Virus record (IMG/VR): IMGVR_UViG_3300046170_000355
Coordinates: 1-56,872 of that record
Origin: a virus
DNA: 56,872 nucleotides
Direction: 5' to 3' (one strand)
Position numbers and translations under genes: made by a program. How positions within the stretch are numbered: the stretch's first letter is position 1; every line of letters begins with the position of its first letter. The notes under the pieces are model-generated. The model was not told the origin of the DNA. It saw only the letters and a program-made list of their open reading frames with translations, and made no database searches. Of this stretch, positions 32,972 to 55,551 are shown piece after piece.

Positions 32972-35424
32972 TGGATGTCAACAAATTATTATCTTATGAA
33001 TATTTTGGTCTTCTAACCGATGAAGAAACAGAAGGAGTTAATTCTTTAAGAGGTGCAAATAAATTACCTGCACCTTACGCCTTTGGACAAGAAAAAGATC
33101 CTCAAGAAAATTTAAATGCTTTTAAAGAACTAATAAACTCTTCTGCTGTAGGAGATTTACAATTAAACTTAACAGACGAGGAATATGCTGACCTTTTCTC
33201 TAGTACTCAAAAATTAAATCAATGGTTTGAAAAACCCGAAAACAGAGCAATGGTCGGTGCTACTGTAGGAGGAGTTGTTCTTCCCACTCTTTTACCAGGA
33301 GCAGGTCCCGCAACATTACCTGCTAGAATTGTAGCATTAATAAATAAGTACCCAAGAATGGCAAAAGTATTTGCAGCTATAACAGGAGGTTTTGGTGGAT
33401 CAGCTCCTTTTATTGAAGCAGATTCTGCTCAAGAATTCATTCAACAAGCGGGTAAGTATGGTTTAATAGAGGGTGTAGGAGAAGGAGCTATTCAAACAAT
33501 AGCTAAATTTTTTCCTTTGTTTAAAGATTTCATTAAATCAAGAGTTAAAAAATTTCCAGAAAAAGGAGCGGAAGAAGCGATAGAACAAGGAGTAATTTTA
33601 AGTCCTGCTCAAAGCACATCAGACAGAATAGTCGACACTATACAAAACATAGCAGACAATTCTTGGAGTGGTGGCGGTACAATGGCACAAGGCAGAGCAA
33701 GAGGAATAGAGACTGCGACTGAAAATATTGGAAATTTATTATTAAATAAATTAGATCCAAAAGTAACAAAAGTTTTAGACAACTCTGTTGAAGATTTTGT
33801 AGCAAATGCATCTGGTAAAGATTTTGCGGGAGTAATGCAGAATTTTTTAAAAAATGGAAGATTAGCTCAAGATATATATATTGATCAAGCATATAAAAAT
33901 TTAGACAAAGCTGTTGCAGGAACTATAGGCAATGCAAAAATAGTAGATATTTCAGGTTTAAAAAAATATGTAATGAATTTACAAAAAGACGTTCCTACCG
34001 ACTCTACTTTAGCGACTGTGTATAAACAAATTGCTGATCTTCCAGATTATGTTGACTTTACTTATGCAAAAAATTTACGTTCAATGTTTTTAGGAAATAC
34101 AAAAGCATTTCAAGAAACAGGTATACCTGTTTCTACTTTCTCCACAAAAGTATCAGGAGCTGCTTTTGCAAAAGTAAATAAAGAAATGGAAAACGCTGTA
34201 AAAGCTATCGCAGATAGTCACGCTAATAAATTAATAAATGAGGGTATGGATGAAGTTTTAGCAAAAGAAGCAGGACAAAAATTATTTCAACAATTAAATG
34301 GATCTTTTAGATCTGCACAAGATTTTTTCTCATTAAGTAAAGATACATTCAATGGAACAATGGTGTCTAAAATTATAAACGCAGCACCTGATCGTGTTTA
34401 TAATATGTTGTTAAAATCAAGATCACCAAACTTAGTTAAATCTTTTAATCAGTTATTAGACCAAGCTGTTAAAGATGGGTCTATAAAATTATCAGAAAAA
34501 TTAGGTTTAAAAAAACAAGTTCAAGGAGAATTTTTTGCAAAAATTTTAACAGATAGTCTTGACCAAGGAACTGGAATTGTAAATGCATCTAAGTTATTTC
34601 AACAAATGAGAACTTTTGGCGGCACAGCCAATAGAGCACTAATAGAGTTATTTGATAATGACCCTGGTTTGTTAAAAGATTTTAGATCTTTAACTAGGTC
34701 TCTTCAATTAGCTCAATCAAAAGGTATGGAAGGGGCAAACGGTGGTTTTTTAATTCAATTATTAAGTGCAGGCGCTTTAGGAGAAGTTGTAGGTCCAGAG
34801 GGACTAACCAACTTAGGGTGGGGTGACGCTGCTGCATTTGGTTTAATTTTTGGAGGACCGAAAGCTGTTGCTGATGCTTTTACTAATCCAAACTTTATTA
34901 AAAATATTTTTAAAGTTAATAAATTAAAACCAGGAAGCGATATGTACACTAGAGCAGTCGTACAAACTGTAAGCGATCTTGTAGAAAAAAACTTTATAAG
35001 CAATGAAAATGTTAATGACTTCATTGATGAGGGTGTTCAAAAAAATTATCTAAATGAAAACGCAAAAAAATATTTTGAAAATAAAACTAAAAAACAAGGA
35101 ACCGATAATAGTTCTACTCTTGTTACATCTCCAGAAGAATTAGAAGCAAAAGCAGATTTATTAAAACAATTAGATATTCAAACTTTAGATGATGACGAGC
35201 CTCTAGCTGTTGCTTCTCTTGACTCTCCTCCATCTAGATCCGTGTCTATGGCACCACTAGACTTAGGACCGCTTACAGCTGCTTCAGCACCTCCTTCACA
35301 GTCTATTAATCCAGAAACTATAGCTAGTTTAGATTCTGTTGGACTACCTTTCTTTCAAGCAAAAGATGGTGGATTAGCGAGTATTGAGCAAAAGAAATTT
35401 AAAAAACCACAGGTGGTATCGTAA
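32971..35424 (+). CDS. Large internal virion-like protein
   Basis: 817 aa, ATG overlapping the previous TAA. A hydrophobic pair of segments (MVGATVGGVVLPTLLPGAG, about 91-110, and KVFAAITGGFGGSAPF) could cross a membrane; the rest is helical. Ends QAKDGGLASIEQKKF. Large helical proteins with membrane segments in this position are typical of podovirus ejection proteins. No lytic transglycosylase motif seen. Confidence 0.55.
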   Translation: MDVNKLLSYEYFGLLTDEETEGVNSLRGANKLPAPYAFGQEKDPQENLNAFKELINSSAVGDLQLNLTDEEYADLFSSTQKLNQWFEKPENRAMVGATVGGVVLPTLLPGAGPATLPARIVALINKYPRMAKVFAAITGGFGGSAPFIEADSAQEFIQQAGKYGLIEGVGEGAIQTIAKFFPLFKDFIKSRVKKFPEKGAEEAIEQGVILSPAQSTSDRIVDTIQNIADNSWSGGGTMAQGRARGIETATENIGNLLLNKLDPKVTKVLDNSVEDFVANASGKDFAGVMQNFLKNGRLAQDIYIDQAYKNLDKAVAGTIGNAKIVDISGLKKYVMNLQKDVPTDSTLATVYKQIADLPDYVDFTYAKNLRSMFLGNTKAFQETGIPVSTFSTKVSGAAFAKVNKEMENAVKAIADSHANKLINEGMDEVLAKEAGQKLFQQLNGSFRSAQDFFSLSKDTFNGTMVSKIINAAPDRVYNMLLKSRSPNLVKSFNQLLDQAVKDGSIKLSEKLGLKKQVQGEFFAKILTDSLDQGTGIVNASKLFQQMRTFGGTANRALIELFDNDPGLLKDFRSLTRSLQLAQSKGMEGANGGFLIQLLSAGALGEVVGPEGLTNLGWGDAAAFGLIFGGPKAVADAFTNPNFIKNIFKVNKLKPGSDMYTRAVVQTVSDLVEKNFISNENVNDFIDEGVQKNYLNENAKKYFENKTKKQGTDNSSTLVTSPEELEAKADLLKQLDIQTLDDDEPLAVASLDSPPSRSVSMAPLDLGPLTAASAPPSQSINPETIASLDSVGLPFFQAKDGGLASIEQKKFKKPQVVS

Positions 35425-37886: not shown

Positions 37887-38105
37887 TTAACTGTCGTTAC
37901 CTTCTTCTTTCCATTCTGATAACTCTTTTTTCATCTGAACATATCTTAAATATTGTGTGACACATTTAGATATATCTTCATGTAAAACAGTTAAACTACC
38001 AATATCCAATTTTATTGGTTTACCCGCATCATCATGAACTCTTTTTACTTCATCACGTGTTAAGCTTAAATACAGCTTTCCATCTTGATATATAATTCTA
38101 CTCAT
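37887..38105 (-). CDS. Hypothetical protein
   Basis: 72 aa from the ATG at 38105, which overlaps the polymerase TGA (ATGA), so the two are coupled. YQDGKLYLSLTRDEVKRVHD, then a C-terminal helix. Reading from an earlier start would run into the polymerase gene. No family recognised. Confidence 0.6.
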   Translation of the reverse strand: MSRIIYQDGKLYLSLTRDEVKRVHDDAGKPIKLDIGSLTVLHEDISKCVTQYLRYVQMKKELSEWKEEGNDS

Positions 38106-39983
38106 TGTGTTTTTCCCCAATTATCTGCTATTGCTACATCTACTTTTGAAGGTATTTCCATCTCCAAACAGTTTTCCATAACTTCTATTATTTTTTGTTG
38201 CCTCTCTTCAGAGCCGTCAACACTAATAGCTAGCTCATCATGTATTTGTATCATTGGTATAATACCTTCCTTATGTAATTCTACCATAGCTTTTTTAATT
38301 TGATCAGCAGCAGATCCTTGAATTAACCTGTTCAAAGATTTATAAGTTCCAGCTCTTTTTAGACCAATATTACTACCATATTCCTCTATTGCTTTATCAT
38401 GAGGATAAGCCTTGTGTGCACCAAAACTTTTAGGTTCCCACAAATCAAAACGACATTGCCTTCCAAGAATTGTTCTTACTCTTCCTTTTCGTTGAGCGTG
38501 ATCAGAAACTTTGTCTGCAAGTTGTCTTACAAAAGGAACTCTTTCATTATATTGCCTAATTAATGCTTTTGCTTCATTAGGATCAATTCCTAGTTGATCT
38601 GACAGTTTTCCAACACCCATTCCATAAAAAAGTCCTAAATTTATGGTTTTAGCGCTCTTACGTGGTATATTGGCTATTTCAGCCATGATCGTATGGAAGT
38701 CGGTGTTTTTGTCCTCTCTATACGCCTCTAAAAGCTTTTTTGATCCTTCAAGTCCCACTTTATTCGCATAATGAACCACTAAACGTGGCTCTTGTTGTGA
38801 GTAATCAAATGAACCCCATTTTTCTCCTTCATTTGGTAAAAACAAACTTCTAATTAAAGTTCCTATCTTTAATTCAGCATTAGCTGAGTCTCTTGCAGGA
38901 ATTTGTTGTAAGTTAGGATTATTATAACTAAATCTACCGGTAACAGTTCCACCACTATCACTTCTTAATTGATTAATATTAGCATGTATCCTTCCATTAT
39001 GATGAAATTTATTAATCATATTAGTAAAAGTGGTTCTAGCTTTATTATAACTCCTAGCTTCTACAATAGCTTTAGGAATTTTATGAGGATGGTTCTCTAA
39101 AAAACTTTTTGTAAAACTAGGGTTCCCTCTTTCTGTTTGAGGATAATCAATCCCACATCCTTTAAAAACTTCTTCAATCGATCTAGCTGCCCAAATATCA
39201 CATTTCATCCCTGTTTCATCATTAACATATTTTAAAAGTTTATTTTCTCTTCTTATTAAATCTTTTTCTGCTTTATCAACTGCCTCTAAATCAACTCGTA
39301 CACCTTTCATTCTCATTTCAATAAGAATAGGAAGCAAGTCTAATTCTAGATCTAAAATTGTTTGTAAATCATTTTTAGTAATTTCTTCTTGTAAGCGATC
39401 CCACAAACGTAGACAAAGAGCTGCATCTTGTTCAGCATATTCACCTACAAACGTGGCAGGCATTTTATACATCTCTGATTTAGCATCAACGCCAAACTGT
39501 GCGGCTGCCTCATACAATCCCCCATTCTGATTTAGAATCTACTAAATATTCTTTAGACAAAGCATTTAAAGAGTAACTAAATTTGTTTTCGTCCACTAAG
39601 GGAGCGGCTACCATTGTATCGACAATACGACCATTCCATTTTATTCCTTCTGCTTTTAACCACCCAAAATCATAAGAAGCATTATGAGCAATTTTATCAC
39701 AATCAGTCGATAGCATTTCCCTTAACCAATCAAAAGTAACTGTAGGGTCAAAGTTAAAACTATTCTCGTGTCGAATAGGGTAATAGCCCTCCCAACCATC
39801 TATAGCTACAGCGACACCAATAATATGTCCATCGTTGGTAGCCCATCCTGGGCCTTTTGACATAATATTCGGATCTTTAGTTTCTAAGTCGATGGCAATT
39901 CTTTTCGCATCTTTAATGTCTTTAAATTCCTGTGGTGGGAGCCACTCTGATTTTGGTTTAAACATTCCTATTTGTTTACTCAT
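38102..39983 (-). CDS. polA: DNA polymerase I (family A), frameshifted
   Basis: Replicative polymerase, about 627 aa if joined. First part (39510-39983): 3'-5' exonuclease motifs AIDLETKDP and KIAHNASYDFGWL. Second part (38102-39517): YAEQDAAL (Exo III) near its start, then polymerase motif A (SFDYSQQEPRL), motif B (KTINLGLFYGMGVGKL) and motif C (IHDELAI). Removing one G from the five-base run at 39519-39523 (+ strand C) gives ...SKSEWGLYEAAAQFG in one frame. The second frame would otherwise start at a TTG. Confidence 0.85.
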
Positions 39984-41567
39984 ACTCTGTAAGCCTCCTT
40001 GCTTGTTGGCGTGATTATATAGAGATTTTCTTTTGCTCTCGAAAAGGCTACATAAAATAGTCGATGCTCATTGATAGGATTCTTCTTATATTCGTCATAA
40101 GACATCTTTCCTATATCTAAAGAAACAACGACATTATCAGCTTCCCCGCCTTTTTGCTGATGAATTGTTGATAAAGTAACTCTTGGTTCTTTACCTATAT
40201 CTTCTCCTCTTGATTCTAAGTTTTCTAAATACGCTCTTGTTTCTGTATTTAAGGTACTCATGACCTTCTACCCATGATTGATCAATGTTGGCCACAAGAC
40301 CAAAATCTTGAACCAATTCTTCAAAAGAAACTTTTTTATCTGGTAAAGCTTTTCTCTGTTCCGATACTATTTTTTTATAACCTCTCGTCACAAAATCCTT
40401 ACCTAAAACTTTGTACATATTCTCGATCATCTTCAGTGATACAGAATTTTTGTAAATTGTTAAATCTTTCCAAGTCAATATAGCATTTCTTTCTTGGGCT
40501 TTGATTGAGTATCTATATTTATTGTCTCTCATCTTGACTCTAAAAAAAACATTTTTCTTTACTAACATTTCCTCTAAGTCTTCTCTAATAGATCTCGTTC
40601 TCCCCATTATTAACCATGAGCCTTGGCTCATATCTAGATGATAAATATTTCTAATAAACTCGACTTGACCATCACGCTCCGCGGGTCGCCATTCGATATC
40701 CTCGGAGTTTGTAATCTGTTCTTCTACTCTATTAACTACTTCCCAAACTTTTCTTGGGACTCTCTTCGATTGATCTAGAACAATTAAATTTTCTGCATTT
40801 TCCTTGAGTTCTAAAGCCTTCGATACATCAGCATCTGCCCAAGTATATATAGCTTGATTAGGATCCATCGCTATATAACTAGTATCGGAGTGAGAATAAA
40901 TTTTCTCTGCCATCTTCCATTGAATTGTTGACATGTCTTGTGCCTCGTCAAAGAAAACAACTTTAAATTTTTTAATTTTTGGTGAGTCAACATAATCTCG
41001 AATAAGGTCAGTAAAGTCTTTCTTTGGTCCCACATCTTTGACCATATAACCTGTCACACCATCAGTGAAATTTTCATACCCATAGTCCTTATATTCTTGT
41101 AGTCCTTTGGCAATATAGTCTAATTTATGTTTTACAATGTCTTTAGCGTATATTGCCCATGCCTCATCTAAACTTATATTTCTTCTTTTAGCTTTTTCTA
41201 TAAGATGAATATACTTTTCATCATAGCTGGTGAAAAAGCTATCGTCATCGTTACTAACATTAATACTAATCCTGAGTACATTTGATACATTCCTCCAATC
41301 ATTTTTACTCATAATATATTCTCTCGACAAACTCATTTGGCGAAGTGCGAAAGAATGAAGTGTTGAAAAATTCTCTAGTTGATTTGTAGGCACTTTAAAG
41401 CGGCTAGCAGCTCGTTGCTTTGCTTCATCAACTGCTTTATTAGAAAAAGAAAAGAAACCAATGTCATTGATATTGACTTCATCTTTTAGATATTCTTCTA
41501 TCTTATTTAAAATGAAAGTGGTCTTACCCGTTCCCGGTGGACCGATGACCACGATAGGTTTACTCAT
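39980..41567 (-). CDS. UvrD/Rep-like SF1 DNA helicase, frameshifted
   Basis: ATP-dependent helicase of about 528 aa if joined. Frame 1 (40191-41567): Walker A GPPGTGKTTFI (residues 8-18) and Walker B FFDEAQDMS. Frame 2 (39980-40261): LSTIHQQKGGEADNVVV and RLFYVAFSRAKENLYII, the last helicase motifs. The join lies near 40264-40265, where removing one C of CC (+ strand) gives SWVEVMSTLNTE. ATPase and last motifs are in different frames as assembled. Confidence 0.8.
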
Positions 41568-42972
41568 TTTCTATTGTTTTTCTAATACTTACCCCTAACA
41601 AATAAGGTATTTGAGGGACTACGGAATTTCCTAAGCATTTAAGTCTGTCCACCCTGTTGGGTATCCCATGAGCCACTCGACCCACGTTGGGTTCAAACTC
41701 CCACCACCCTTGATCCATTGTTCCTTGTCCTTCTTCGCTACTTTCTGTGGTAGTAAATTGCGGTCTGAATTTATTACGGCTTTGCCACTGTCTTTGTAGT
41801 CTCTCGCTGTCGGAGTCGGCCATCTCTCTGTTGGAAACATTTCTATCGCCATCTCCTCCTCTAGTTTGCCCCTTAACTTTCCTTTCCTGTCGATTCTCTT
41901 CTTGACTGTTTCCAAGTTCTCGTTCATTGCTGCTGATGCTCTCGGAGTCGGCCATCTTTTTATCTCCTCTTCTTGCACTGCTAGTGTCAGAGGTTTCCCC
42001 CCTTGAGCGTATTTCTTCGTTCTCTCCGTTGCTGAGTCTTGTGTCGGAGTCGGCCACAATTTTGCTGCTCGATCTAGGGTTATTTGAACATGTTTGCCTG
42101 TTTTCGGATTGTAGGCTCTTTCGTTCGGTTGAACTGGTTTGCCCTCTTTCGTTACCAAAGTTTCCATCATAGGACCTTTTCCTGCTGTTTGATTTGTCGG
42201 AGTCGGCCACATTAGATTGGGATGTGCCACTTGATCGTTGATGCTGATCGGCATTCCCTTTTCCAACTTCATTGTCATTCTCTCTTTGCTCGAAGGCCCT
42301 CGACCGCAATGAGCGTCTGGTGTCCTCCATAATTGGACTAGTCTCCCCAATCCGATTGACCCGTCCACCCCGTTCTGATTGACCTTTCTGAGAGTCCCGT
42401 TCTTGGTCATGTGGAACTTGTCGTTCTTCCCAATGATTGAACCTGTCGTTCCGTCCGCGCTCATTGGAGTGGGCAATAATCCATACCCTTTCTCTTTGGT
42501 GGTTTGCACCGATGCTCGAAGCTGAAATACTAAATGTCCTTGTGGAGTAACCTTCACTCGCCAAGTTCTCAAGTACGGTGTCGAGACCGAGTTTAATGTG
42601 TCCACCAACGTTTTCTCCAATAACCCAAGAGGGCCTAAGTTCTTGGACAAGTCTAAACATTTCTGGCCAGACGTGTCTCGGATCTTGCTCACCTTTTTGC
42701 TTACCTGCAACGGAGAAAGGTTGGCAAGGATATCCTCCTGTGATGATGTCGATTCCTTTTTCTCCTGAAATAATTCCGTCTGATTTAAGTCTGTCATAAT
42801 TTAACTCCTTTACATTATCATAAACAGGCACTTGAGGCCAGTTCTTATTTAAAATCTTTTTGCAATATTTATCAAAATCACAAAAAGCGACTGTTTCTAC
42901 TAATTCGGCACTTTCTAATCCTAAAGAAAATCCTCCAATGCCACTAAATAAATCTAAATGTCGTAAGGTCAA
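41560..42972 (-). CDS. DNA (cytosine-5) methyltransferase
   Basis: 470 aa, TTG start overlapping the primase TGA, GAGGAG upstream. Motif I DLFSGIGGFSLGL (7-19), catalytic PCQ in GGYPCQPFS (Cys 83), ENV (120-122), QRERVWII (159-166) and the C-terminal LGNSVVPQ. The unusual region between QRERVW and the last motif (about 170-430) is hydrophilic with six xADS/xAHS boxes. It is fully overlapped by another gene in the +1 frame (41631-42797). Methylates phage DNA, probably against host restriction. Confidence 0.85.
   Translation of the reverse strand: MTLRHLDLFSGIGGFSLGLESAELVETVAFCDFDKYCKKILNKNWPQVPVYDNVKELNYDRLKSDGIISGEKGIDIITGGYPCQPFSVAGKQKGEQDPRHVWPEMFRLVQELRPSWVIGENVGGHIKLGLDTVLENLASEGYSTRTFSISASSIGANHQRERVWIIAHSNERGRNDRFNHWEERQVPHDQERDSQKGQSERGGRVNRIGETSPIMEDTRRSLRSRAFEQRENDNEVGKGNADQHQRSSGTSQSNVADSDKSNSRKRSYDGNFGNERGQTSSTERKSLQSENRQTCSNNPRSSSKIVADSDTRLSNGENEEIRSRGETSDTSSARRGDKKMADSESISSNERELGNSQEENRQERKVKGQTRGGDGDRNVSNREMADSDSERLQRQWQSRNKFRPQFTTTESSEEGQGTMDQGWWEFEPNVGRVAHGIPNRVDRLKCLGNSVVPQIPYLLGVSIRKTIENE
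41631..42797 (-). CDS. Protein encoded inside the methyltransferase gene, +1 frame
   Basis: 388 aa, same strand, one base out of frame. ATG at 42797 follows AAAGGAG by 7 bases, a strong site inside the methyltransferase coding sequence. Repeated boxes LLPTP, LWRTP, MWPTPT, LWPTPT, RWPTP, RWPTPT correspond exactly to the xADS/xAHS boxes of the other frame. Ends LNPTWVEWLMGYPTGWTDL, a C-terminus I recall from separately annotated phage and prophage proteins beside cytosine methyltransferases. Function unknown; expression inferred. Confidence 0.7.
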   Translation of the reverse strand: MTDLNQTELFQEKKESTSSQEDILANLSPLQVSKKVSKIRDTSGQKCLDLSKNLGPLGLLEKTLVDTLNSVSTPYLRTWRVKVTPQGHLVFQLRASVQTTKEKGYGLLPTPMSADGTTGSIIGKNDKFHMTKNGTLRKVNQNGVDGSIGLGRLVQLWRTPDAHCGRGPSSKERMTMKLEKGMPISINDQVAHPNLMWPTPTNQTAGKGPMMETLVTKEGKPVQPNERAYNPKTGKHVQITLDRAAKLWPTPTQDSATERTKKYAQGGKPLTLAVQEEEIKRWPTPRASAAMNENLETVKKRIDRKGKLRGKLEEEMAIEMFPTERWPTPTARDYKDSGKAVINSDRNLLPQKVAKKDKEQWIKGGGSLNPTWVEWLMGYPTGWTDLNA

Positions 42973-50139: not shown

Positions 50140-50159
50140 TATATCAAGAATTTGATATA
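50140..50159. promoter_or_regulatory. 20-bp inverted repeat upstream of the palindromic promoter
   Basis: TATATCAA-GAAT-TTGATATA, 8-bp arms around a 4-base spacer, 28 bases upstream of the -10 box at 50187. It may be a second operator. Confidence 0.4.
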
Positions 50160-50168
50160 CTAAGATTT

Positions 50169-50192
50169 CGTGCGTACGCACGTATATATAAT
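50169..50192 (+). promoter_or_regulatory. Promoter with overlapping palindrome
   Basis: A 14-bp perfect palindrome CGTGCGTACGCACG (50169-50182) sits where a -35 box would be, followed by TATATATAATG with a TATAAT -10 (50187-50192). The same GCACGTATATATAA core occurs at two minus-strand start regions near 50905 and 52327. Possibly a phage-controlled promoter. Confidence 0.55.
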
Positions 50193-50546: not shown

Positions 50547-50656
50547 TTTTTCTTTTTTCTCCGTTTTTTCTTAGCTGCTCTTTTAATTTTAGCAGCACCT
50601 GTTGGTGGACCATGACGCATTGACACTGCATTACATGATCCAATAGTTTTACCCAT
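50543..50656 (-). CDS. Very basic small protein
   Basis: 37 aa ending in a run of Lys and Arg (KIKRAAKKKRRKKKK). Overlaps the next gene (ATGA) and the previous gene (TAATG). The middle of a coupled three-gene operon that includes a candidate repressor. Confidence 0.5.
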   Translation of the reverse strand: MGKTIGSCNAVSMRHGPPTGAAKIKRAAKKKRRKKKK

Positions 50657-50847
50657 TATATTAAATCCATCAATTTATTGATGTCGTGGAGTTCGTTTTG
50701 TAATTTTGTGATTTCGTGAGTAAAACGATCATTCACTAACTCCACTTTTGCTTTGCCTCGAACTTTAAAATACTTTTCTAATTTTATAAGTATCTCTTCT
50801 TTTCTTTTGGCGTGTTTATTTAGCCATGTTTGTTCTGTTTCGTTCAT
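50656..50847 (-). CDS. Small coiled-coil protein
   Basis: 63 aa, helical (KRKEEILIKLEKYFKVRGKA, KVELVNDRFTHEITKLQNEL). AAAGGAAAG site. First gene after ribozyme site 1, coupled to the basic 37-aa protein. No family recognised. Confidence 0.6.
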   Translation of the reverse strand: MNETEQTWLNKHAKRKEEILIKLEKYFKVRGKAKVELVNDRFTHEITKLQNELHDINKLMDLI

Positions 50848-50892
50848 TCTTCTTTCCTTTCTTATATTATTTTATAGCTTTTTACAATAAAT

Positions 50893-50904
50893 GCTACAGA
50901 CACT
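50893..50904 (-). repeat. Ribozyme target site 1
   Basis: Minus-strand AGUGUC/UGUAGC. Matches the ribozyme arms with one G-U wobble in stem I. No RBS in the repeat here. Lies 46 bases ahead of the 63-aa gene, just after the promoter element at 50905. Confidence 0.6.
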
Positions 50905-50961
50905 TTCTTATATATGTATACGTGCGTATGCGTATGCACTAATGCAATTTTTATTTAATGA
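50905..50961 (-). promoter_or_regulatory. Promoter-like element with ACGCACGTATA core
   Basis: Minus strand: TTGCAT, TGCATACGCATACGCACG and TATACATATATAAG in order, ending beside target site 1. It shares about 45 bases with 52327-52376 and the ACGCACGTATATA core with the + promoter at 50169. Candidate phage-specific promoter with operators. Confidence 0.5.
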
Positions 50962-51030
50962 TAATGTCTTAAAAATTATTATAGTAATAGAGTGTATTTA
51001 TAAAATGCACTCCTCCTTTAATAAGACAAT

Positions 51031-51057
51031 AAGGGGTTTTCCTAATGAAAGCCCCTT
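51031..51057 (-). terminator. Hairpin after the 89-aa gene
   Basis: AAGGGGTTTTC (51031-51041) pairs with GAAAGCCCCTT (51047-51057), loop CTAAT. Located 15 bases past the 89-aa gene's stop. Likely a terminator on the minus strand. Confidence 0.65.
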
Positions 51058-51071
51058 ATACTGATTTTGAT

Positions 51072-51341
51072 CTAAAGACTTGGAATAATTGAAAGATCTC
51101 TCAAATTTGTATGAATTGCCCCAACGTCATTTCCTTCTTCATCTGACATAATCATTAATTCAATATCTTGTTTCATTTGTTTGACACCAAAAGGCTTATT
51201 AAGATGAAGGACAATTCCATGTCCATCGATTTCACCCTCTCCCCATTGGTCATGAGGTTTGAAAGTAACTTTTGTTATTCTCATATTTTTTAAAAAATAA
51301 TTTGTTTTCATTTCCCATTCTTTAATTTTACTTTTTTTCAT
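51072..51341 (-). CDS. Hypothetical protein
   Basis: 89 aa. A mixed alpha/beta look (ITKVTFKPHDQWGEGEIDGH and KQMKQDIELMIMSDEEGNDV). Behind target site 2 with an AGGAGG site. No family recognised. Confidence 0.6.
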   Translation of the reverse strand: MKKSKIKEWEMKTNYFLKNMRITKVTFKPHDQWGEGEIDGHGIVLHLNKPFGVKQMKQDIELMIMSDEEGNDVGAIHTNLRDLSIIPSL

Positions 51342-51347
51342 TTTTGG

Positions 51348-51370
51348 TAGCCTCCTATTGCTACAGACAC
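51348..51370 (-). repeat. Ribozyme target site 2 with AGGAGG
   Basis: Minus-strand UGUGUC/UGUAGC-AAUAGGAGG-CUA. The position before GUGUC is U, so stem III has four pairs, and stem I has a G-U wobble. The RBS feeds the 89-aa gene. Confidence 0.7.
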
Positions 51371-51371
51371 A

Positions 51372-51401
51372 AAGGGAGGGAAAACTTAATTTCCCTCCCT
51401 T
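51372..51401 (-). terminator. Hairpin between 185-aa gene and site 2
   Basis: AAGGGAGGGAAA (51372-51383) pairs with TTTCCCTCCCTT (51390-51401), loop ACTTAA. The upstream gene's stop is 8 bases before it. The surrounding 48 bases are duplicated at 51977-52024. Confidence 0.7.
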
Positions 51402-51409
51402 AAAATTAT

Positions 51410-51967
51410 TTAATGACCATATAAAGAATCAGTCTCGTATTTGGGGACATTGTCCCACTTACTGCCATAAGTAAAGCCATATAAAGCAATATGGTTATTT
51501 CTACCCACTCTTTTTGTCATGGTTTCCCCTTTTTCAATCCTTGTTGGTTGGACTTTGTTTCCATATGACCCATTTTGTTCGACATATTCTTTTTGTACTT
51601 TGACAATTTCAATTGTTTGTTTGCCTTTTAGAGCTACAACTTTAAAAAAGTCAACATTGGTTTGATCATATCCCCAAGAACAGTAAATAAAGTCACCGAT
51701 TTGATAATCGTGCCCTTGGCTTCTTTCTTTTCTTCTTTCGACTACAGATTGTTTTTGTGAAATTCTTCTTTCAATAGCTTTTTTGATTGTTTCATCCATT
51801 TGATTCAAATCTTTAAATCTATAATGCCAAAAAGGTTTTTTTGTTTTTGGTGTATGACAACAAGCAACCATTTTTATAGTATCTGCGAATATTTCTAAAT
51901 CGTTTAAATCATCTTTTATAATATGATCTGTATTATATTTTTCGTAGTTGTTTGGTATTATTCTCAT
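51410..51967 (-). CDS. Conserved hypothetical protein (SWGYDQTNVDF motif)
   Basis: 185 aa. The stretch GDFIYCSWGYDQTNVDFFKV is a motif I recall from many plasmid and phage proteins of unknown function. N-terminal part has CCHTPKTKKPFWHYRF. Behind target site 3 and AGGAGG. Confidence 0.65.
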   Translation of the reverse strand: MRIIPNNYEKYNTDHIIKDDLNDLEIFADTIKMVACCHTPKTKKPFWHYRFKDLNQMDETIKKAIERRISQKQSVVERRKERSQGHDYQIGDFIYCSWGYDQTNVDFFKVVALKGKQTIEIVKVQKEYVEQNGSYGNKVQPTRIEKGETMTKRVGRNNHIALYGFTYGSKWDNVPKYETDSLYGH

Positions 51968-51973
51968 AATTTA

Positions 51974-51996
51974 TAGCCTCCTATTGCTACAGACAC
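51974..51996 (-). repeat. Ribozyme target site 3 with AGGAGG
   Basis: Minus-strand UGUGUC/UGUAGC-AAUAGGAGG-CUA, identical in core to site 2, with the G-U wobble and a four-pair stem III. Cleavage would fall between 51992 and 51991. Confidence 0.7.
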
Positions 51997-52000
51997 AAAG

Positions 52001-52024
52001 GGAGGGAAAACTTAATTTCCCTCC
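52001..52024 (-). terminator. Hairpin with stop codon in loop (gene at 52012)
   Basis: GGAGGGAAA (52001-52009) pairs with TTTCCCTCC (52016-52024), loop ACTTAA, which contains the TAA of the upstream gene (52012-52014 on +). Confidence 0.7.
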
Positions 52025-52296
52025 AATTCTCCTCTTATTGTTTTTATGCAGTCCCAACAAAAAACATTGTCATCAATGTCAAAATTGTTTTTATTCTGAT
52101 AATCTTCAATTTTTTTGTCATCACATTCAAAATTCTCAGAACTTAAATACATAGCTTGTTCTTCTCTTTCTTGATGAGAGCCACCAAGATCAAAATAATC
52201 TTGGCATTTAGAACATTCTCTAAATGAAAATGGTTCATCTGTTAATTCTTCTTGAGTAGATAAAGAAAATGTATCAAATAATTGTTTACTAATCAT
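52012..52296 (-). CDS. Putative zinc-binding protein
   Basis: 94 aa from the ATG at 52296, chosen because it follows AGGAGG of target site 4; the open frame extends upstream through the repeat (SVYSNRRL) but has no RBS. CSKCQDYFD and VFCWDCIKTI form two Cys pairs for a zinc site. Confidence 0.6.
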   Translation of the reverse strand: MISKQLFDTFSLSTQEELTDEPFSFRECSKCQDYFDLGGSHQEREEQAMYLSSENFECDDKKIEDYQNKNNFDIDDNVFCWDCIKTIRGELEGN

Positions 52297-52302
52297 TTTT
52301 AA

Positions 52303-52326
52303 TAGCCTCCTATTGCTATAGACACT
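52303..52326 (-). repeat. Ribozyme target site 4 with AGGAGG
   Basis: Minus-strand AGUGUC/UAUAGC-AAUAGGAGG-CUA, perfect match to the ribozyme arms, next to a TATATAAG promoter-like sequence. Confidence 0.75.
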
Positions 52327-52376
52327 TATATATACGTGCGTATATGCGTATGGCACTAATGCAATTTTTATTTAAA
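52327..52376 (-). promoter_or_regulatory. Second promoter-like element, ACGCACGTATA core
   Basis: Minus strand: TTGCATTAGTGCC, ATACGCATATACGCACG and TATATAAG ending 1 base from target site 4. Shared with 50905-50961. With a -10 at TATATA, transcription would begin near the target site, so the message start would resemble the processed 5' ends. Confidence 0.5.
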
Positions 52377-52425
52377 AAAATTTTTTGAGATCCAGGTTTT
52401 TAAGTAAAAATTTTTGATTTTTTAA

Positions 52426-52440
52426 ATTGCTATAGACACT
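52426..52440 (-). repeat. Ribozyme target site 5, no gene or RBS
   Basis: Minus-strand AGUGUC/UAUAGC-AAU, then AT-rich sequence. The cleavage motif is intact but AGGAGG and a gene are missing. It may define the 3' end of the 89-aa message. Confidence 0.65.
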
Positions 52441-52448
52441 CAAAGAAA

Positions 52449-52465
52449 TGGGGGATTAACCCCCA
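52449..52465 (-). terminator. Hairpin with stop codon in loop (gene at 52456)
   Basis: TGGGGG (52449-52454) pairs with CCCCCA (52460-52465), loop ATTAA, which contains the TAA of the upstream gene at 52456-52458. Confidence 0.7.
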
Positions 52466-52725
52466 AAATCCTTCTTTATTGTTTCAGCTTCTTCGATATC
52501 TCCCCATTGAGTTCTAATCTCATCAAAAGATAATTGAAAAGGATAGTTTGCAAGAAAGGGTTCAAAGTCGTTTATATCTTCCCCTTGCTCTTGGATTTCA
52601 ATGACATTCTCTTGAGCAGAAAAAATAAGATCATTAATTTTTTTCATTTTTTCTAAAAGCTCTAATTTCTGCTCAGTAATATATTTTTGACTTCCTAATT
52701 CTTCTAAAGTTTTATTTATATTCAT
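52456..52725 (-). CDS. Hypothetical protein
   Basis: 89 aa from the ATG at 52725, behind target site 6 and AGGAGG. The in-frame extension (SLSVYSNRRLFN) runs through the repeat and is not used. Helical N-terminus and acidic body. No family recognised. Confidence 0.6.
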   Translation of the reverse strand: MNINKTLEELGSQKYITEQKLELLEKMKKINDLIFSAQENVIEIQEQGEDINDFEPFLANYPFQLSFDEIRTQWGDIEEAETIKKDFGG

Positions 52726-52731
52726 ATTAAA

Positions 52732-52755
52732 TAGCCTCCTATTGCTATAGACACT
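52732..52755 (-). repeat. Ribozyme target site 6 with AGGAGG
   Basis: Minus-strand GAGUGUC/UAUAGC-AAUAGGAGG-CUA. Perfect match; cleavage between 52750 and 52749. Confidence 0.75.
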
Positions 52756-52763
52756 CAGAGAGA

Positions 52764-52783
52764 AAAGGGGTTTAAACCCCTTT
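52764..52783 (-). terminator. Palindromic hairpin with stop codon at centre (gene at 52772)
   Basis: AAAGGGGTTTAAACCCCTTT, a perfect 20-bp palindrome; the TAA of the upstream gene at 52772-52774 is in its centre. Confidence 0.7.
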
Positions 52784-52963
52784 AATTTTCTTTTCAATTT
52801 CTTTTAATTTTTCATCATTCGCTTTTAATCTTTTATTTGCAAAATTTATTTTTCGATGCCAGAAATTTATATAACTTTCAATTTCTTCTTTTTCGTTTTG
52901 AAGCTTGAAAAGTTTTTTTTCTTTTTCTGACATTTGATCAATGTCTTTTTGTGTTACTGTCAT
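52772..52963 (-). CDS. Small coiled-coil protein
   Basis: 63 aa, overlapping the upstream 67-aa gene by 4 bases (ATGA), so it is coupled and has no target site of its own. Starts MTVTQKDIDQMSEKEKKLFK; coiled coil to the end. No family recognised. Confidence 0.6.
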   Translation of the reverse strand: MTVTQKDIDQMSEKEKKLFKLQNEKEEIESYINFWHRKINFANKRLKANDEKLKEIEKKIKGV

Positions 52964-53163
52964 TGGCTTTCTTCCTCATAATGTAAATTAGATAAATGAA
53001 TTTCTTTTTCCCAATCTAATTTAAATAAATCGCAATAATGCCTTAAATCTGCAATGACATCCCCAACCCTTGGATATGTGTTTTTCTGGTTCTTCTCATA
53101 AAGTTTTTCATTTAATCCTAAAAGTTTTTTTACTTTTAATGCTCTTTGTCTATTAGTTATCAT
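52960..53163 (-). CDS. Small hypothetical protein
   Basis: 67 aa, behind target site 7. MITNRQRALKVKKLLGLNEK and DVIADLRHYCDLFKLDW. Possible small DNA-binding fold but no clear motif. Confidence 0.6.
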   Translation of the reverse strand: MITNRQRALKVKKLLGLNEKLYEKNQKNTYPRVGDVIADLRHYCDLFKLDWEKEIHLSNLHYEEESQ

Positions 53164-53169
53164 ATTAAA

Positions 53170-53195
53170 TAGCCTCCTTAATTGCTATAGACACT
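53170..53195 (-). repeat. Ribozyme target site 7, TA insertion before AGGAGG
   Basis: Minus-strand GAGUGUC/UAUAGC-AAUUAAGGAGG-CUA, two bases longer before the RBS than other sites. The UAA here is the stop of the upstream 109-aa reading frame. Confidence 0.7.
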
Positions 53196-53507
53196 CAAGA
53201 CAAAAAGGGCTAAGAAGCCCTTTTCATTCCTTTCAATGATTGATTTTAGTATAAGTTTAGAAGCCTCGTTGATAGTGTCTTCTTTAATTGCTAGGTGTAA
53301 ATCTTCACTAAGCCAATTATATAAAAAATCAAATTCATCTTTTTTTAATATTACTGCTTCATAATTTTTATGAGTAAATAATATTGCTTTTGATTTTCTC
53401 TCATGAGAGACAATATTTAAAAGAGTATCTAAAAGAACTTTCTTTGATATTTTTTCTCTTTCAAATTGTTCGACTAAATCATTTAAATCATTAATTAAAC
53501 TAGTCAT
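53178..53507 (-). CDS. Hypothetical protein, C-terminus crosses the repeat
   Basis: 109 aa, ATG overlapping the upstream gene's stop. Helical. The frame runs through the hairpin at 53203-53224 and the target site, ending SVYSN. A one-base deletion in the AAAA run at 53221-53224 would instead give a stop inside the hairpin loop (ERNERAS), as in neighbouring genes. So the 3' end may be misassembled or real. Confidence 0.6.
   Translation of the reverse strand: MTSLINDLNDLVEQFEREKISKKVLLDTLLNIVSHERKSKAILFTHKNYEAVILKKDEFDFLYNWLSEDLHLAIKEDTINEASKLILKSIIERNEKGFLALFVLSVYSN
53203..53224 (-). terminator. Hairpin after the 109-aa gene
   Basis: AAAAGGGC (53203-53210) pairs with GCCCTTTT (53217-53224), loop TAAGAA (TTCTTA on the coding strand). 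Confidence 0.7.
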
Positions 53508-53799
53508 TAATATTTTCCCCCCATCCTTTTGATTTTCTCACTAAATCATAAGCAGAGTTATCATCTAAAATATTGGCTAATTCATAATTTAAATCGTCTT
53601 TTTCTTCTTGCGTCTTGTCCTTATGTAAATCAATTAATTTATCTTCTAGGGTTTCAATTGTGTTTACTAGATTTTGAATATCTTCATTTTGCTTTTTGAT
53701 TTCCTTTTCAAGATCTTTTTTTATTTCTTCAAGATCAATTACTATTTGATTTACTGAATATTGCACCTCTTCATATTTTTCTTTTTGTTTTTTATTCAT
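53500..53799 (-). CDS. Coiled-coil protein
   Basis: 99 aa behind target site 8. Almost entirely charged coiled coil (VNQIVIDLEEIKKDLEKEIK and IQNLVNTIETLEDKLIDLHK). Likely oligomeric. The stop overlaps the next ATG. Confidence 0.6.
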   Translation of the reverse strand: MNKKQKEKYEEVQYSVNQIVIDLEEIKKDLEKEIKKQNEDIQNLVNTIETLEDKLIDLHKDKTQEEKDDLNYELANILDDNSAYDLVRKSKGWGENIND

Positions 53800-53805
53800 A
53801 TTTAA

Positions 53806-53829
53806 TAGCCTCCTATTGCTATAGACACT
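53806..53829 (-). repeat. Ribozyme target site 8 with AGGAGG
   Basis: Minus-strand AAGUGUC/UAUAGC-AAUAGGAGG-CUA. Perfect arm match; cleavage between 53824 and 53823. Confidence 0.75.
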
Positions 53830-53838
53830 TAAAGAGAA

Positions 53839-53872
53839 CCACGAAGAGAGAAACTCGCCTCGTGGCTCGTGG
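53839..53872 (-). terminator. Larger hairpin before site 8
   Basis: CCACGA (53839-53844) pairs with either TCGTGG copy (53860-53865 or 53867-53872) with an inner GAG/CTC helix. The 40-aa gene's stop is 20 bases upstream, so here the stop is outside the loop. Confidence 0.55.
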
Positions 53873-53891
53873 CTTTTATTATGATTTATAT

Positions 53892-54014
53892 TTATTTATT
53901 GCTTATAAAACTTTTATAAAATTGAATAAAAGCTCTAATTCCCATTTCATTCGGTGCAAATAATTTGCCCCAACCAACATTGGCATTATACATTTCTTGC
54001 ATTTCTTTGGACAT
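53892..54014 (-). CDS. Short hypothetical protein
   Basis: 40 aa (MSKEMQEMYNANVGWGKLFA...), start behind AAAGGGGGTGAT, under target site 9, in the same cassette layout as its neighbours. Small size, but the RBS and the cassette support it. Confidence 0.5.
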   Translation of the reverse strand: MSKEMQEMYNANVGWGKLFAPNEMGIRAFIQFYKSFISNK

Positions 54015-54036
54015 TATCAAAATAAATCACCCCCTT

Positions 54037-54048
54037 TCTACAGACACT
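54037..54048 (-). repeat. Ribozyme target site 9, partial
   Basis: Minus-strand GAGUGUC/UGUAGA. Five of six stem I pairs with one G-U; the last base is mismatched. The usual AGGAGG is replaced by AAAGGGGGU. Confidence 0.6.
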
Positions 54049-54054
54049 CAGAGA

Positions 54055-54074
54055 AGGAGGCAATTAAGCCTCCT
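54055..54074 (-). terminator. Hairpin with stop codon in loop (gene at 54064)
   Basis: AGGAGGC (54055-54061) pairs with GCCTCCT (54068-54074), loop AATTAA; the TAA of the upstream gene is in the loop. Confidence 0.7.
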
Positions 54075-54450
54075 CCTGATTTTCAATAGATATATTTTCG
54101 ATTATTCTATTATCGTGGTTGGGATTATTGGTTTCATAACCGAAACCCTCTTCCTCGTCATCATAATTAATATATTCGTCAATACTTTTCCAAGGTTTGA
54201 AAGAGTATTCAAGGCAGTTAGTTGCATAATGATATGCAATAATATGATCATTATTTAAATGTATAAATAAATGAAAAAAATTACCTCCACTTCCATAATT
54301 ATCAACTTCTTTAATTTCATAAAGAATATCGAAATTATTAAACCAAGGGATATTTTTTTTAATAAGATCAAAGAAATATTCTTTTTTATTTATTAAGTCT
54401 GTTAATCTTAAAAATTCAAAATGTTCTTGTCGTGTTAATTGTAGTTTCAT
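54064..54450 (-). CDS. Hypothetical protein
   Basis: 128 aa from the ATG at 54450 behind target site 10 and AGGAGG; the in-frame extension (SVYSNRRLFI) is not used. Acidic, with LTRQEHFEFLRLTDLINKKE at the start and DEEEGFGYETNNPNHDNRII near the end. No family recognised. Confidence 0.6.
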   Translation of the reverse strand: MKLQLTRQEHFEFLRLTDLINKKEYFFDLIKKNIPWFNNFDILYEIKEVDNYGSGGNFFHLFIHLNNDHIIAYHYATNCLEYSFKPWKSIDEYINYDDEEEGFGYETNNPNHDNRIIENISIENQEEA

Positions 54451-54456
54451 AATAAA

Positions 54457-54480
54457 TAGCCTCCTATTGCTATAGACACT
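54457..54480 (-). repeat. Ribozyme target site 10 with AGGAGG
   Basis: Minus-strand GAGUGUC/UAUAGC-AAUAGGAGG-CUA. Perfect match; cleavage between 54475 and 54474. Confidence 0.75.
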
Positions 54481-54483
54481 CAA

Positions 54484-54507
54484 GAGAAAGGGCTAAGAAG
54501 CCCTCTC
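54484..54507 (-). terminator. Hairpin with stop codon at loop edge (gene at 54493)
   Basis: AGGGC (54489-54493) pairs with GCCCT (54500-54504), loop TAAGAA; an outer GAG/CTC helix extends it. The TAG of the upstream gene is at the loop edge. Confidence 0.65.
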
Positions 54508-54885
54508 CATTGCGTTATTAAATCCAACTATAAAACCTAATAATTCATGCTTAGAATTAAATCTTTTATAGTCTTCATTATATCGACTGTAACCAATATT
54601 GATTGAATAATCGTGGAAAGATATTCCTTGGTTTTCCACTCTGTTCAATAATCTTTGATCATAATCTTTAGTAGATTTTTCTAATAATTTTTTTAAGTTT
54701 CGTTTAAATTGAAAACATTGATCAGCGTAATAATATTTATTATCACCACTCAAACGAAAATTAATATTTTCTTTATTTCGAATAAATTGTAGCTCGTTTA
54801 GTTCAAGATATTCTTCTGTAATGTGTTCGCCTTTTCTTACTTTATCTACTAATTCAATATATCTTTTTTGTTGTTTCTTATTCAT
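54493..54885 (-). CDS. Hypothetical protein
   Basis: 130 aa from the ATG at 54885 behind target site 11 and AGGAGG. Helical, Lys/Glu-rich (KKQQKRYIELVDKVRKGEHI). The in-frame upstream extension is not used. No family recognised. Confidence 0.6.
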   Translation of the reverse strand: MNKKQQKRYIELVDKVRKGEHITEEYLELNELQFIRNKENINFRLSGDNKYYYADQCFQFKRNLKKLLEKSTKDYDQRLLNRVENQGISFHDYSINIGYSRYNEDYKRFNSKHELLGFIVGFNNAMERAS

Positions 54886-54891
54886 AATAAA

Positions 54892-54915
54892 TAGCCTCCT
54901 ATTGCTATAGACACT
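54892..54915 (-). repeat. Ribozyme target site 11 with AGGAGG
   Basis: Minus-strand GAGUGUC/UAUAGC-AAUAGGAGG-CUA. Perfect match; cleavage between 54910 and 54909. Confidence 0.75.
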
Positions 54916-54924
54916 CAAGGGAAA

Positions 54925-54943
54925 GGGGACTTTATAAGTCCCC
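54925..54943 (-). terminator. Hairpin with stop codon in loop (gene at 54932)
   Basis: GGGGACTT (54925-54932) pairs with AAGTCCCC (54936-54943), loop TAT; the TAA of the upstream gene lies at the stem-loop junction. Confidence 0.7.
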
Positions 54944-55273
54944 ATTTAATTTATGGCAATGTAAAGCGTAACCAATGGGGCAACCATGTTTGCCCCATTG
55001 ATCGTCTTTAAAATTATAAAATTCGTTTCTTCTTTGTTCTAAGAAAAAACACTCATACCCATTAAAATCTAATTCATAAGGGTTTAAGTCATCGTCAAAA
55101 TGCCAACATTTGCCAATTTTAACAATGTATCGAATAAAGGCTCTCGCCTCGCTGATCGTTTTAATTTGTTTTCTTATAAAACGATGATAGGGCAATTTTG
55201 TCCAATATTCGTTGGGGTGATCATCTTTTGAAAAACAAAAATCTGCTCTTTGGTTTAAATAATCTTGTTTCAT
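54932..55273 (-). CDS. Hypothetical protein, first gene of the array
   Basis: 113 aa, under target site 12. The stretch DLNPYELDFNGYECFFLEQR and four Cys suggest a compact folded protein. First cassette downstream of the ribozyme. No family recognised. Confidence 0.6.
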   Translation of the reverse strand: MKQDYLNQRADFCFSKDDHPNEYWTKLPYHRFIRKQIKTISEARAFIRYIVKIGKCWHFDDDLNPYELDFNGYECFFLEQRRNEFYNFKDDQWGKHGCPIGYALHCHKLNGDL

Positions 55274-55279
55274 AATAAA

Positions 55280-55301
55280 TAGCCTCCTATTGCTATAGAC
55301 A
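55280..55301 (-). repeat. Ribozyme target site 12 with AGGAGG (nearest the ribozyme)
   Basis: Minus-strand UUGUC/UAUAGC-AAUAGGAGG-CUA. Stem III is shortened (only A15.1-U, C-G and possibly A-U), because GUGUC is UUGUC here. It is only 22 bases from the ribozyme 3' end, so cis cleavage with a GGGGGA hairpin closing stem III is possible. Confidence 0.7.
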
Positions 55302-55302
55302 A

Positions 55303-55319
55303 GGGGGAAAATATCCCCC
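55303..55319 (-). terminator. GGGGG/CCCCC hairpin between ribozyme and first site
   Basis: Minus strand GGGGG (55319-55315) pairs with CCCCC (55307-55303), loop of seven A/U bases. It would sit inside stem III of a cis-folded hammerhead or end the ribozyme RNA. No U-run, so it may be structural. Confidence 0.55.
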
Positions 55320-55322
55320 TTT

Positions 55323-55363
55323 AGTGTTTCGCCTATTTAAGGCTCATCAGTATAGCTTTGGAG
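55323..55363 (-). ncRNA. Hammerhead ribozyme catalytic strand
   Basis: Minus strand: stem I arm GCUAUA (55356-55351), CUGAUGA (55350-55344), stem II GCC/GGC with loop UUAAAUA (55343-55331), GAAA (55330-55327), stem III arm ACACU (A15.1 to 55323). Every conserved hammerhead core position is met. The arms are complementary to the repeated AGUGUC/UAUAGC sites at 50.9-55.3 kb. Just 5' of the stem I arm, CUCC (55363-55360) can pair with GGAG of the site RBS across an internal loop. Activity is inferred. Confidence 0.85.
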
Positions 55364-55531
55364 TGTTTCGACTGTTCAACTTTGGAAGGTGTCACCTTCT
55401 AGGCTCTGTGCCTTAAGGACTATCTATTTATCCTCGCATTAAGTGTTCAATATGTTCGGAACACCTAACGAAATAAGTTCAATACTTACCGACCGAAGTC
55501 GACCCTAATTACCCCAATGACTAAATTATAT
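55323..55531 (-). ncRNA. Structured leader RNA containing the ribozyme
   Basis: About 200 bases with several hairpins: GGUGUUC/GAACAC, GGAU/GUCC, GGCACAGAGCC, GAAGGUGACACCUUC. A second GAAACACUC (55370-55362) and CCAAAG occur just upstream in the same order, as if a ribozyme unit was duplicated and lost its CUGAUGA. Probably the 5' part of the array transcript. Confidence 0.5.
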
Positions 55532-55551
55532 AAATCTAGTGTGGTTGTAAA
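55525..55551 (-). promoter_or_regulatory. Candidate promoter for the array transcript
   Basis: Minus strand TTTACA (55551-55546), 15-base spacer, TATAAT (55530-55525). Spacing is short for a sigma-70 promoter. It would start an RNA covering the leader, ribozyme and cassettes. Confidence 0.35.

Follow-up and report, generated by a model that had tools for sequence, protein, structure and literature searches.

Can one natural hammerhead ribozyme, encoded once in a genome, cut a transcript at many sites that have no catalytic core of their own? This question is raised by the IMG/VR virus record IMGVR_UViG_3300046170_000355, which was analyzed over its entire length of 56,872 nucleotides (nt; hereafter, the window) and in which a single hammerhead catalytic strand is followed by an array of small genes preceded by repeats complementary to its arms. 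Comparison of the window with 18 relatives, together a marine phage family, strongly suggests that one RNA cuts a long transcript into separate messenger RNAs (mRNAs). Judging from the sequences, it is very likely that one hammerhead RNA cuts an early polycistronic transcript at almost all of its gene junctions. The portal protein of the window is about 50% identical to those of the pelagiphages HTVC023P and HTVC027P, and the virus may, to judge from these portal relatives, infect a pelagiphage-type host.

The first-pass annotation of the window had placed a catalytic strand at minus-strand positions 55356-55323. A complete hammerhead strand is indeed present there and reads from 55363 to 55323. 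This strand and the adjoining elements are as follows:

55323..55363, minus strand: catalytic strand CUCC-AAA-GCUAUA-CUGAUGA-GCCU(UAAAU)AGGC-GAAA-CACU, comprising a two-part 5' substrate arm, core, stem II and 3' arm; kept in 18 further IMG/VR contigs
55301..55321, minus strand: hairpin AAGGGGG..CCCCCUU, which separates the 3' arm from the proximal site and leaves the CAC arm free
55364..55540, minus strand: non-coding stretch upstream (5') of the core, conserved in part in relatives L010, L012 and L025; the probable body of the ribozyme RNA

On the minus strand, GCUAUA occupies 55356-55351, CUGAUGA 55350-55344, the stem-loop GCCU-UAAAU-AGGC 55343-55331, GAAA 55330-55327 and CAC 55326-55324; the hammerhead core, CUGANGA and GAAA with the G10.1-C11.1 pair, is present. 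The CUCC segment, which had been overlooked, pairs with the GGAG Shine-Dalgarno sequence of most sites. Stem I contains an internal loop, AAA opposite N3-5, and loop II is a conserved UUAAU; the two are positioned for a possible stem I/loop II tertiary contact. The 3' arm is a better match to AGUGUC, as in the coreless sites, than to UUGUC, as in the site that adjoins it in the window. A motif search of the array found only one core, as had been claimed. Upstream of the core, about 170-250 nt of apparently structured non-coding RNA are conserved in the window (minus strand, 55364-55540) and in L145, L146, L147 and L148; this RNA falls into two subfamilies, one of which carries the motif GGCGAACA..AAGGGCGAACU..GGGUAUC..GAUGCC, and it has no match in Rfam.

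All twelve of the proposed target sites were found on the minus strand, 3' of the catalytic strand and nearly all directly before small genes, and each of them has GUC at the cleavage point (12/12). The sites, located by motif search and, for the coreless ones, also by co-folding, are listed here together with the array, with the predicted cleavage point shown by a slash:

55292..55302, minus strand: proximal (cis) site, UUGUC/UAUAGC
54904..54914, minus strand: coreless site GUGUC/UAUAGC, followed by a GGAGG hairpin and ATG
54469..54479, minus strand: coreless site GUGUC/UAUAGC
54037..54047, minus strand: coreless site GUGUC/UGUAGA, with no downstream hairpin and with the ribozyme-pairing bases retained
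53818..53828, minus strand: coreless site GUGUC/UAUAGC
53184..53194, minus strand: coreless site GUGUC/UAUAGC
52744..52754, minus strand: coreless site GUGUC/UAUAGC
52429..52439, minus strand: coreless site GUGUC/UAUAGC, at the end of a unit, with no Shine-Dalgarno sequence behind it
52315..52325, minus strand: coreless site GUGUC/UAUAGC, at the start of a second unit
51986..51996, minus strand: coreless site GUGUC/UGUAGC
51360..51370, minus strand: coreless site GUGUC/UGUAGC
50893..50903, minus strand: distal coreless site GUGUC/UGUAGC
50656..55273, minus strand: array of small genes (open reading frames, ORFs) with no assigned function, most with a site in front

In DNA letters, ten sites read GTGTCTRTAGC, one reads GTGTCTGTAGA (54047-54037) and the proximal one reads TTGTCTATAGC (55302-55292). 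The positions given earlier needed some revision: 50893 and 54037 mark the GTC element itself, and most others mark the start of the surrounding block, about 12 nt away (for example, 51348 for the site at 51360-51370, and 54892 for that at 54904-54914). A covarying hairpin that had not been noticed follows most of the cleavage points. The sequence GTCTRTAGC occurs 11 times in the window, always on the strand of the array, compared to 0.44 expected from shuffled sequences, and none of 100 shuffles reached 11; chance matching was rejected on these numbers. Searches of the array proteins against Pfam and PHROGs found no function. Near-palindromic CGCATACGCACGTATATATAA-like repeats, perhaps promoters or operators, lie at unit starts in the window (approximately 50905-50945, 52325-52360 and 50155-50190); in a sigma-70 scan, promoters were no more common than in shuffled sequences.

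Using unconstrained co-folding of two free strands, the catalytic strand and a site oligonucleotide, we obtained the exact hammerhead with 11 of the 12 window sites. In these complexes, stem I has 5 or 6 base pairs (bp), stem II has 4 bp, stem III has 4-5 bp and nucleotide 17 is free; at most sites, a further 4 bp form across the internal loop between CUCC and the Shine-Dalgarno GGAG. The proximal site (UUGUC), folded as an isolated oligonucleotide, gave no hammerhead complex. When the whole window was scanned in the same manner on both strands, in steps of 3, the complex appeared at the 11 coreless sites and at one other place, plus-strand position 35246. The latter corresponds to a perfect GTGTCTATGGC site at plus 35242-35252, inside a gene on the other strand; it is probably a chance occurrence, possibly a late target.

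Scans of IMG/VR for the catalytic strand returned 18 further contigs of the same type. Three other hits (L016, L021 and L026) were discarded as chance matches to the strand pattern that lack a hammerhead context. In the 14 relatives' records that were searched whole, the core occurs exactly once per record; it opens, at the 5' end, an array on the same strand that has as many as 12 coreless GUGUC/URURGC sites. In the 12 records searched whole for sites, stray matches elsewhere were found only in G002. Across 14 arrays, 87 of the 111 ORF starts that bear a Shine-Dalgarno sequence have a site with at most three mismatches, and 76 of these sites are perfect. Repeats accompanied by a degraded core, which had been named as a finding that would count against the proposal, did not turn up among the relatives. 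The GTDB genomes gave no match to the strand; isolates with related portals (HTVC023P, HTVC027P, 023Pt_psg01 and DSL-LC04) contain no hammerhead of the window's family and no array, and blastn comparison of the window's array and of L145 to isolate phages gave no match. Close to the far end of the array, a sub-threshold manA RNA was seen in four relatives (L144:5874-6054; L146:1181-1362, minus strand; L148:4363-4544; L145:5352-5530).

The variation among these contigs is compatible with cleavage. The nucleotide before the cut (position 17) is C in 81 cases, U in three, A in three and G in none (in another count, 81, four, two and none, respectively), in agreement with the NUH rule, under which any nucleotide but G may stand here. 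At the two positions of the site arm that vary, only A or G occurs; therefore, the sites always pair or wobble with the invariant arm GCUAUA, and the earlier statement that the change from UAUAGC to UGUAGC preserves pairing as G-U holds. Different site variants coexist in one genome and face the same ribozyme. The doubly changed UGUGGC is nearly absent (one of 107 matches, probably by chance). At three pairs of stem II, both sides have changed in 16, 2 and 10 cells; 99.8% of the cells are paired, and none of 500 shuffles reached this level; RNAalifold, run with no constraint on 12 relatives, pairs the stem I strands and stem II. Within the core, the sole change is U to G at position 7 (CUGAGGA), in L155 and L160. 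Hammerhead position 7 tolerates any base, the consensus being CUGANGA.

In the sites, GUGU is invariant and the upstream flank is close to random. The hairpin RURGC..GCYAY, with the Shine-Dalgarno sequence in its loop, covaries; hairpin-less sites (window position 54045; L022, L023 and L145) still keep URUAG, and pairing with the ribozyme is thus a separate constraint. These patterns bear on two alternatives. If the strand were an antisense regulator that covers the Shine-Dalgarno sequences of the array mRNAs and blocks ribosomes, with catalysis vestigial, the pairing of CUCC and GCUAUA with GGAG and URURGC would be accounted for. Conversely, cleavage requires a core that changes only at position 7, a compensated stem II, the CAC/GUG arm and the H17 rule, and antisense action does not; moreover, some sites have no Shine-Dalgarno sequence to cover; we find this explanation highly improbable. 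Alternatively, the repeats could be promoters of a phage RNA polymerase or sites of a protein endonuclease such as a RegB-like ribonuclease (RNase), the match to the arms being coincidental. CTATAG does resemble the core of T7-type promoters, and terminator-like hairpins precede many sites; nevertheless, the variation is at the RNA level (G-U pairs and hairpin compensation), core and array are conserved together in 18 further contigs, and just one place outside the array gives the complex, which leaves this the least probable of the explanations considered.

A distinctive property of the window's family is the state of stem III. Its pairing probability in cis has a median of 0.02 in the family, compared to 1.0 in 165 distinct ordinary phage hammerheads; it is below 0.2 in eight of the nine distinct family cores and at least 0.5 in 159 of the 165 others. 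The low value results from the insertion of a separate hairpin, which leaves the CAC arm open, and since stem III is not closed in cis, the 3' arm is free for other targets. In the RNA that would be released by the supposed first cut, ACAC is largely open, and this RNA and a separate substrate together adopt the hammerhead fold in eight of nine cases. A scan of IMG/VR for the ordinary core type yielded at least 120 matches. Across approximately 158 phage hammerhead cores outside the family that have a cis site, there are 48 coreless arm-matched sites versus 29 on the opposite strand, which is near background; the same count in the window's family is 92 versus 0, a figure in which some overlapping loci are counted twice. 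The AGCUAUA arm is also present in contigs L161-L163, where it belongs to ordinary cis hammerheads with no repeats. Because the ordinary hammerheads, these included, lack arrays of this kind, the arrays go with the opened form. Several full cis hammerheads before genes were seen in five other phage contigs (L036, L098, L105, L110 and L118).

The same observations can be set against the view that only the proximal site is cut, in cis, and that duplication has spread the remaining repeats as leader cassettes for ribosome binding. The repeats do contain a Shine-Dalgarno sequence and a covarying hairpin. However, GUGU is invariant although it has no conserved partner in the leader, sites devoid of a Shine-Dalgarno sequence or hairpin retain GUGUC-URUAG, position 17 follows the NUH rule, and stem III is poorly formed in cis in eight of the nine cores. 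Leader cassettes are a very unlikely explanation.

Representing the proposed process as a cleavage reaction between two hammerhead halves, we envisage the following: (i) transcription would begin in the non-coding region 5' of the core, and the 5' end of the early transcript would carry the single strand CUCC-AAA-GCUAUA-CUGANGA-stem II-GAAACAC, while most genes of the array would be preceded by the other half, GUGUC/URURGC-N3-5-GGAG; (ii) GUGU would pair with ACAC as stem III and URURGC with GCUAUA as stem I, which in most sites would be extended outward by the Shine-Dalgarno GGAG paired with CUCC, with the cut following GUH (GUGUCUAUAGCAAUAGGAGGCUAU is a predicted substrate of the CUCC..CAC strand); (iii) the downstream mRNA would start with a 5'-OH end that folds into the hairpin RURGC..GCYAY, with the Shine-Dalgarno sequence in the loop, and the upstream mRNA would end with its own hairpin, which precedes the site, and GUGUC bearing a cyclic phosphate. 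Because the downstream hairpin draws on the bases that form stem I, its folding could assist release of the ribozyme. The outcome would be single-gene mRNAs with structured ends, all derived from one early operon.

The proposal that one hammerhead serves many sites draws support from the single core per record, the NUH-compatible and A/G-only sites, the compensation in stem II, the restriction of core changes to position 7, the open arm and the lack of arrays elsewhere. A rival is long-range cis cleavage only, in which the 5' core loops to the sites of its own transcript and cuts them, and there is neither a diffusible ribozyme nor turnover. In the records examined, the core is 5' of its array and on the same strand, so that every such transcript would carry its own core. 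Yet what looks like a second transcription unit begins at 52323, where it has a site and lacks a core, and the first cut would make the core-bearing RNA a molecule of its own in which both arms are free; cis action alone therefore appears unlikely. Cleavage presumably occurs, at least in part between molecules and with turnover, and would serve to set the expression and stability of single genes in the early operon. In its fuller form, which we regard as probable, the proposal is that each phage encodes one natural, diffusible, multiple-turnover hammerhead that works in trans as a site-specific RNase at roughly twelve mRNA junctions, recognizes the ribosome-binding site and shapes the ends of nearly every early mRNA.

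Several observations weigh against one hammerhead acting on the whole array. The Rfam search of the window gave no hammerhead above the gathering threshold (the best was Hammerhead_HH9, 18.3 bits versus a cut-off of 52). Stem III has just 4-5 bp, the site hairpin competes with ribozyme binding, and the binding energy is not exceptional (net -9.3 kcal/mol versus a first percentile of -10.2 for random 25-mers of the array); the case stands on geometry and evolution, not on binding energy. The 5' arm is invariant in the family, and a search for relatives with other 5' arms found none, so two-sided covariation between arm and site is absent. Sites unaccompanied by a core are seen in L156 and in the record of L158/L159; it should be noted that contigs may be fragments, and that L158 begins 20 bases ahead of its first site, at what looks like a contig end. 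Finally, the contigs are related by descent, and counts across them are thus not independent events.

How does this system compare to known ribozymes? It shares with the type I hammerheads located 5' of many phage genes CUGANGA..GAAA, the UUAAU loop of stem II, GUH at the cleavage point and a stem I strand followed by a start codon, and the AGCUAUA arm is common to L161-L163. It differs in that stem III is not a closed hairpin, being replaced by the free CAC arm and an independent hairpin, and in that the CUCC arm reads the Shine-Dalgarno sequence. Tandem hammerheads between (pro)phage genes have been proposed to divide long transcripts into mRNAs of one operon or one gene (Perreault et al. 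2011, PMC3088659). Placement between phage genes and the proposed cutting are common to both, but in the tandem case every site has its own core, whereas here one core accompanies up to twelve coreless sites; neither a core for each site nor a cis-closed stem III hairpin, the marks of ordinary cis type I hammerheads, is found. Altogether, the element would be a natural hammerhead that derives from type I and has come to act on sites other than its own.

According to reviews, hammerheads found in nature act in cis, and those that act in trans are engineered (PMC6155905, PMC12192606). The discontinuous hammerhead of mammalian Clec2 mRNAs has one core and one site in the same 3' untranslated region and is of type III (Martick et al. 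2008, cited in PMC6155905). The window's hammerhead resembles it in the distance in sequence between core and cleavage strand, and departs from it in its many sites and type I-like order and origin, so that it does not belong with Clec2. Engineered trans-cleaving hammerheads likewise keep enzyme and substrate on separate strands, with recognition through arms I and III; those are laboratory constructs. RNase P RNA is a natural ribozyme that acts on other RNAs; it is large, assisted by protein, and recognizes a tRNA-like shape and not a base-paired target. The window's hammerhead would share natural action on other RNAs with it, and the two are otherwise unrelated. Our search of open-access papers turned up no hammerhead that naturally acts in trans on several sites; preprints and subscription papers lay largely outside this search, and priority is therefore not proven.

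In nature, small self-cleaving ribozymes are considered to act in cis, and one hammerhead with scattered targets would be a natural trans-acting hammerhead. If true, this would constitute an RNA-only system of mRNA processing, a possible answer to the purpose of phage hammerheads, and a naturally evolved template for trans-cleaving ribozymes. The code that links arm and target lets further cases be looked for, and short synthetic RNAs allow a direct test.

Two further observations were made elsewhere in the window, on the minus strand. An ORF of 470 amino acids resembling DNA cytosine methyltransferase (41560-42972) is overlapped almost fully by an ORF of 388 amino acids with WPTPT repeats in another frame of the same strand (41631-42797). 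DNA polymerase A (38102-39983) is apparently split into two ORFs that overlap at 39510-39517, which represents either a frameshift or a real split.

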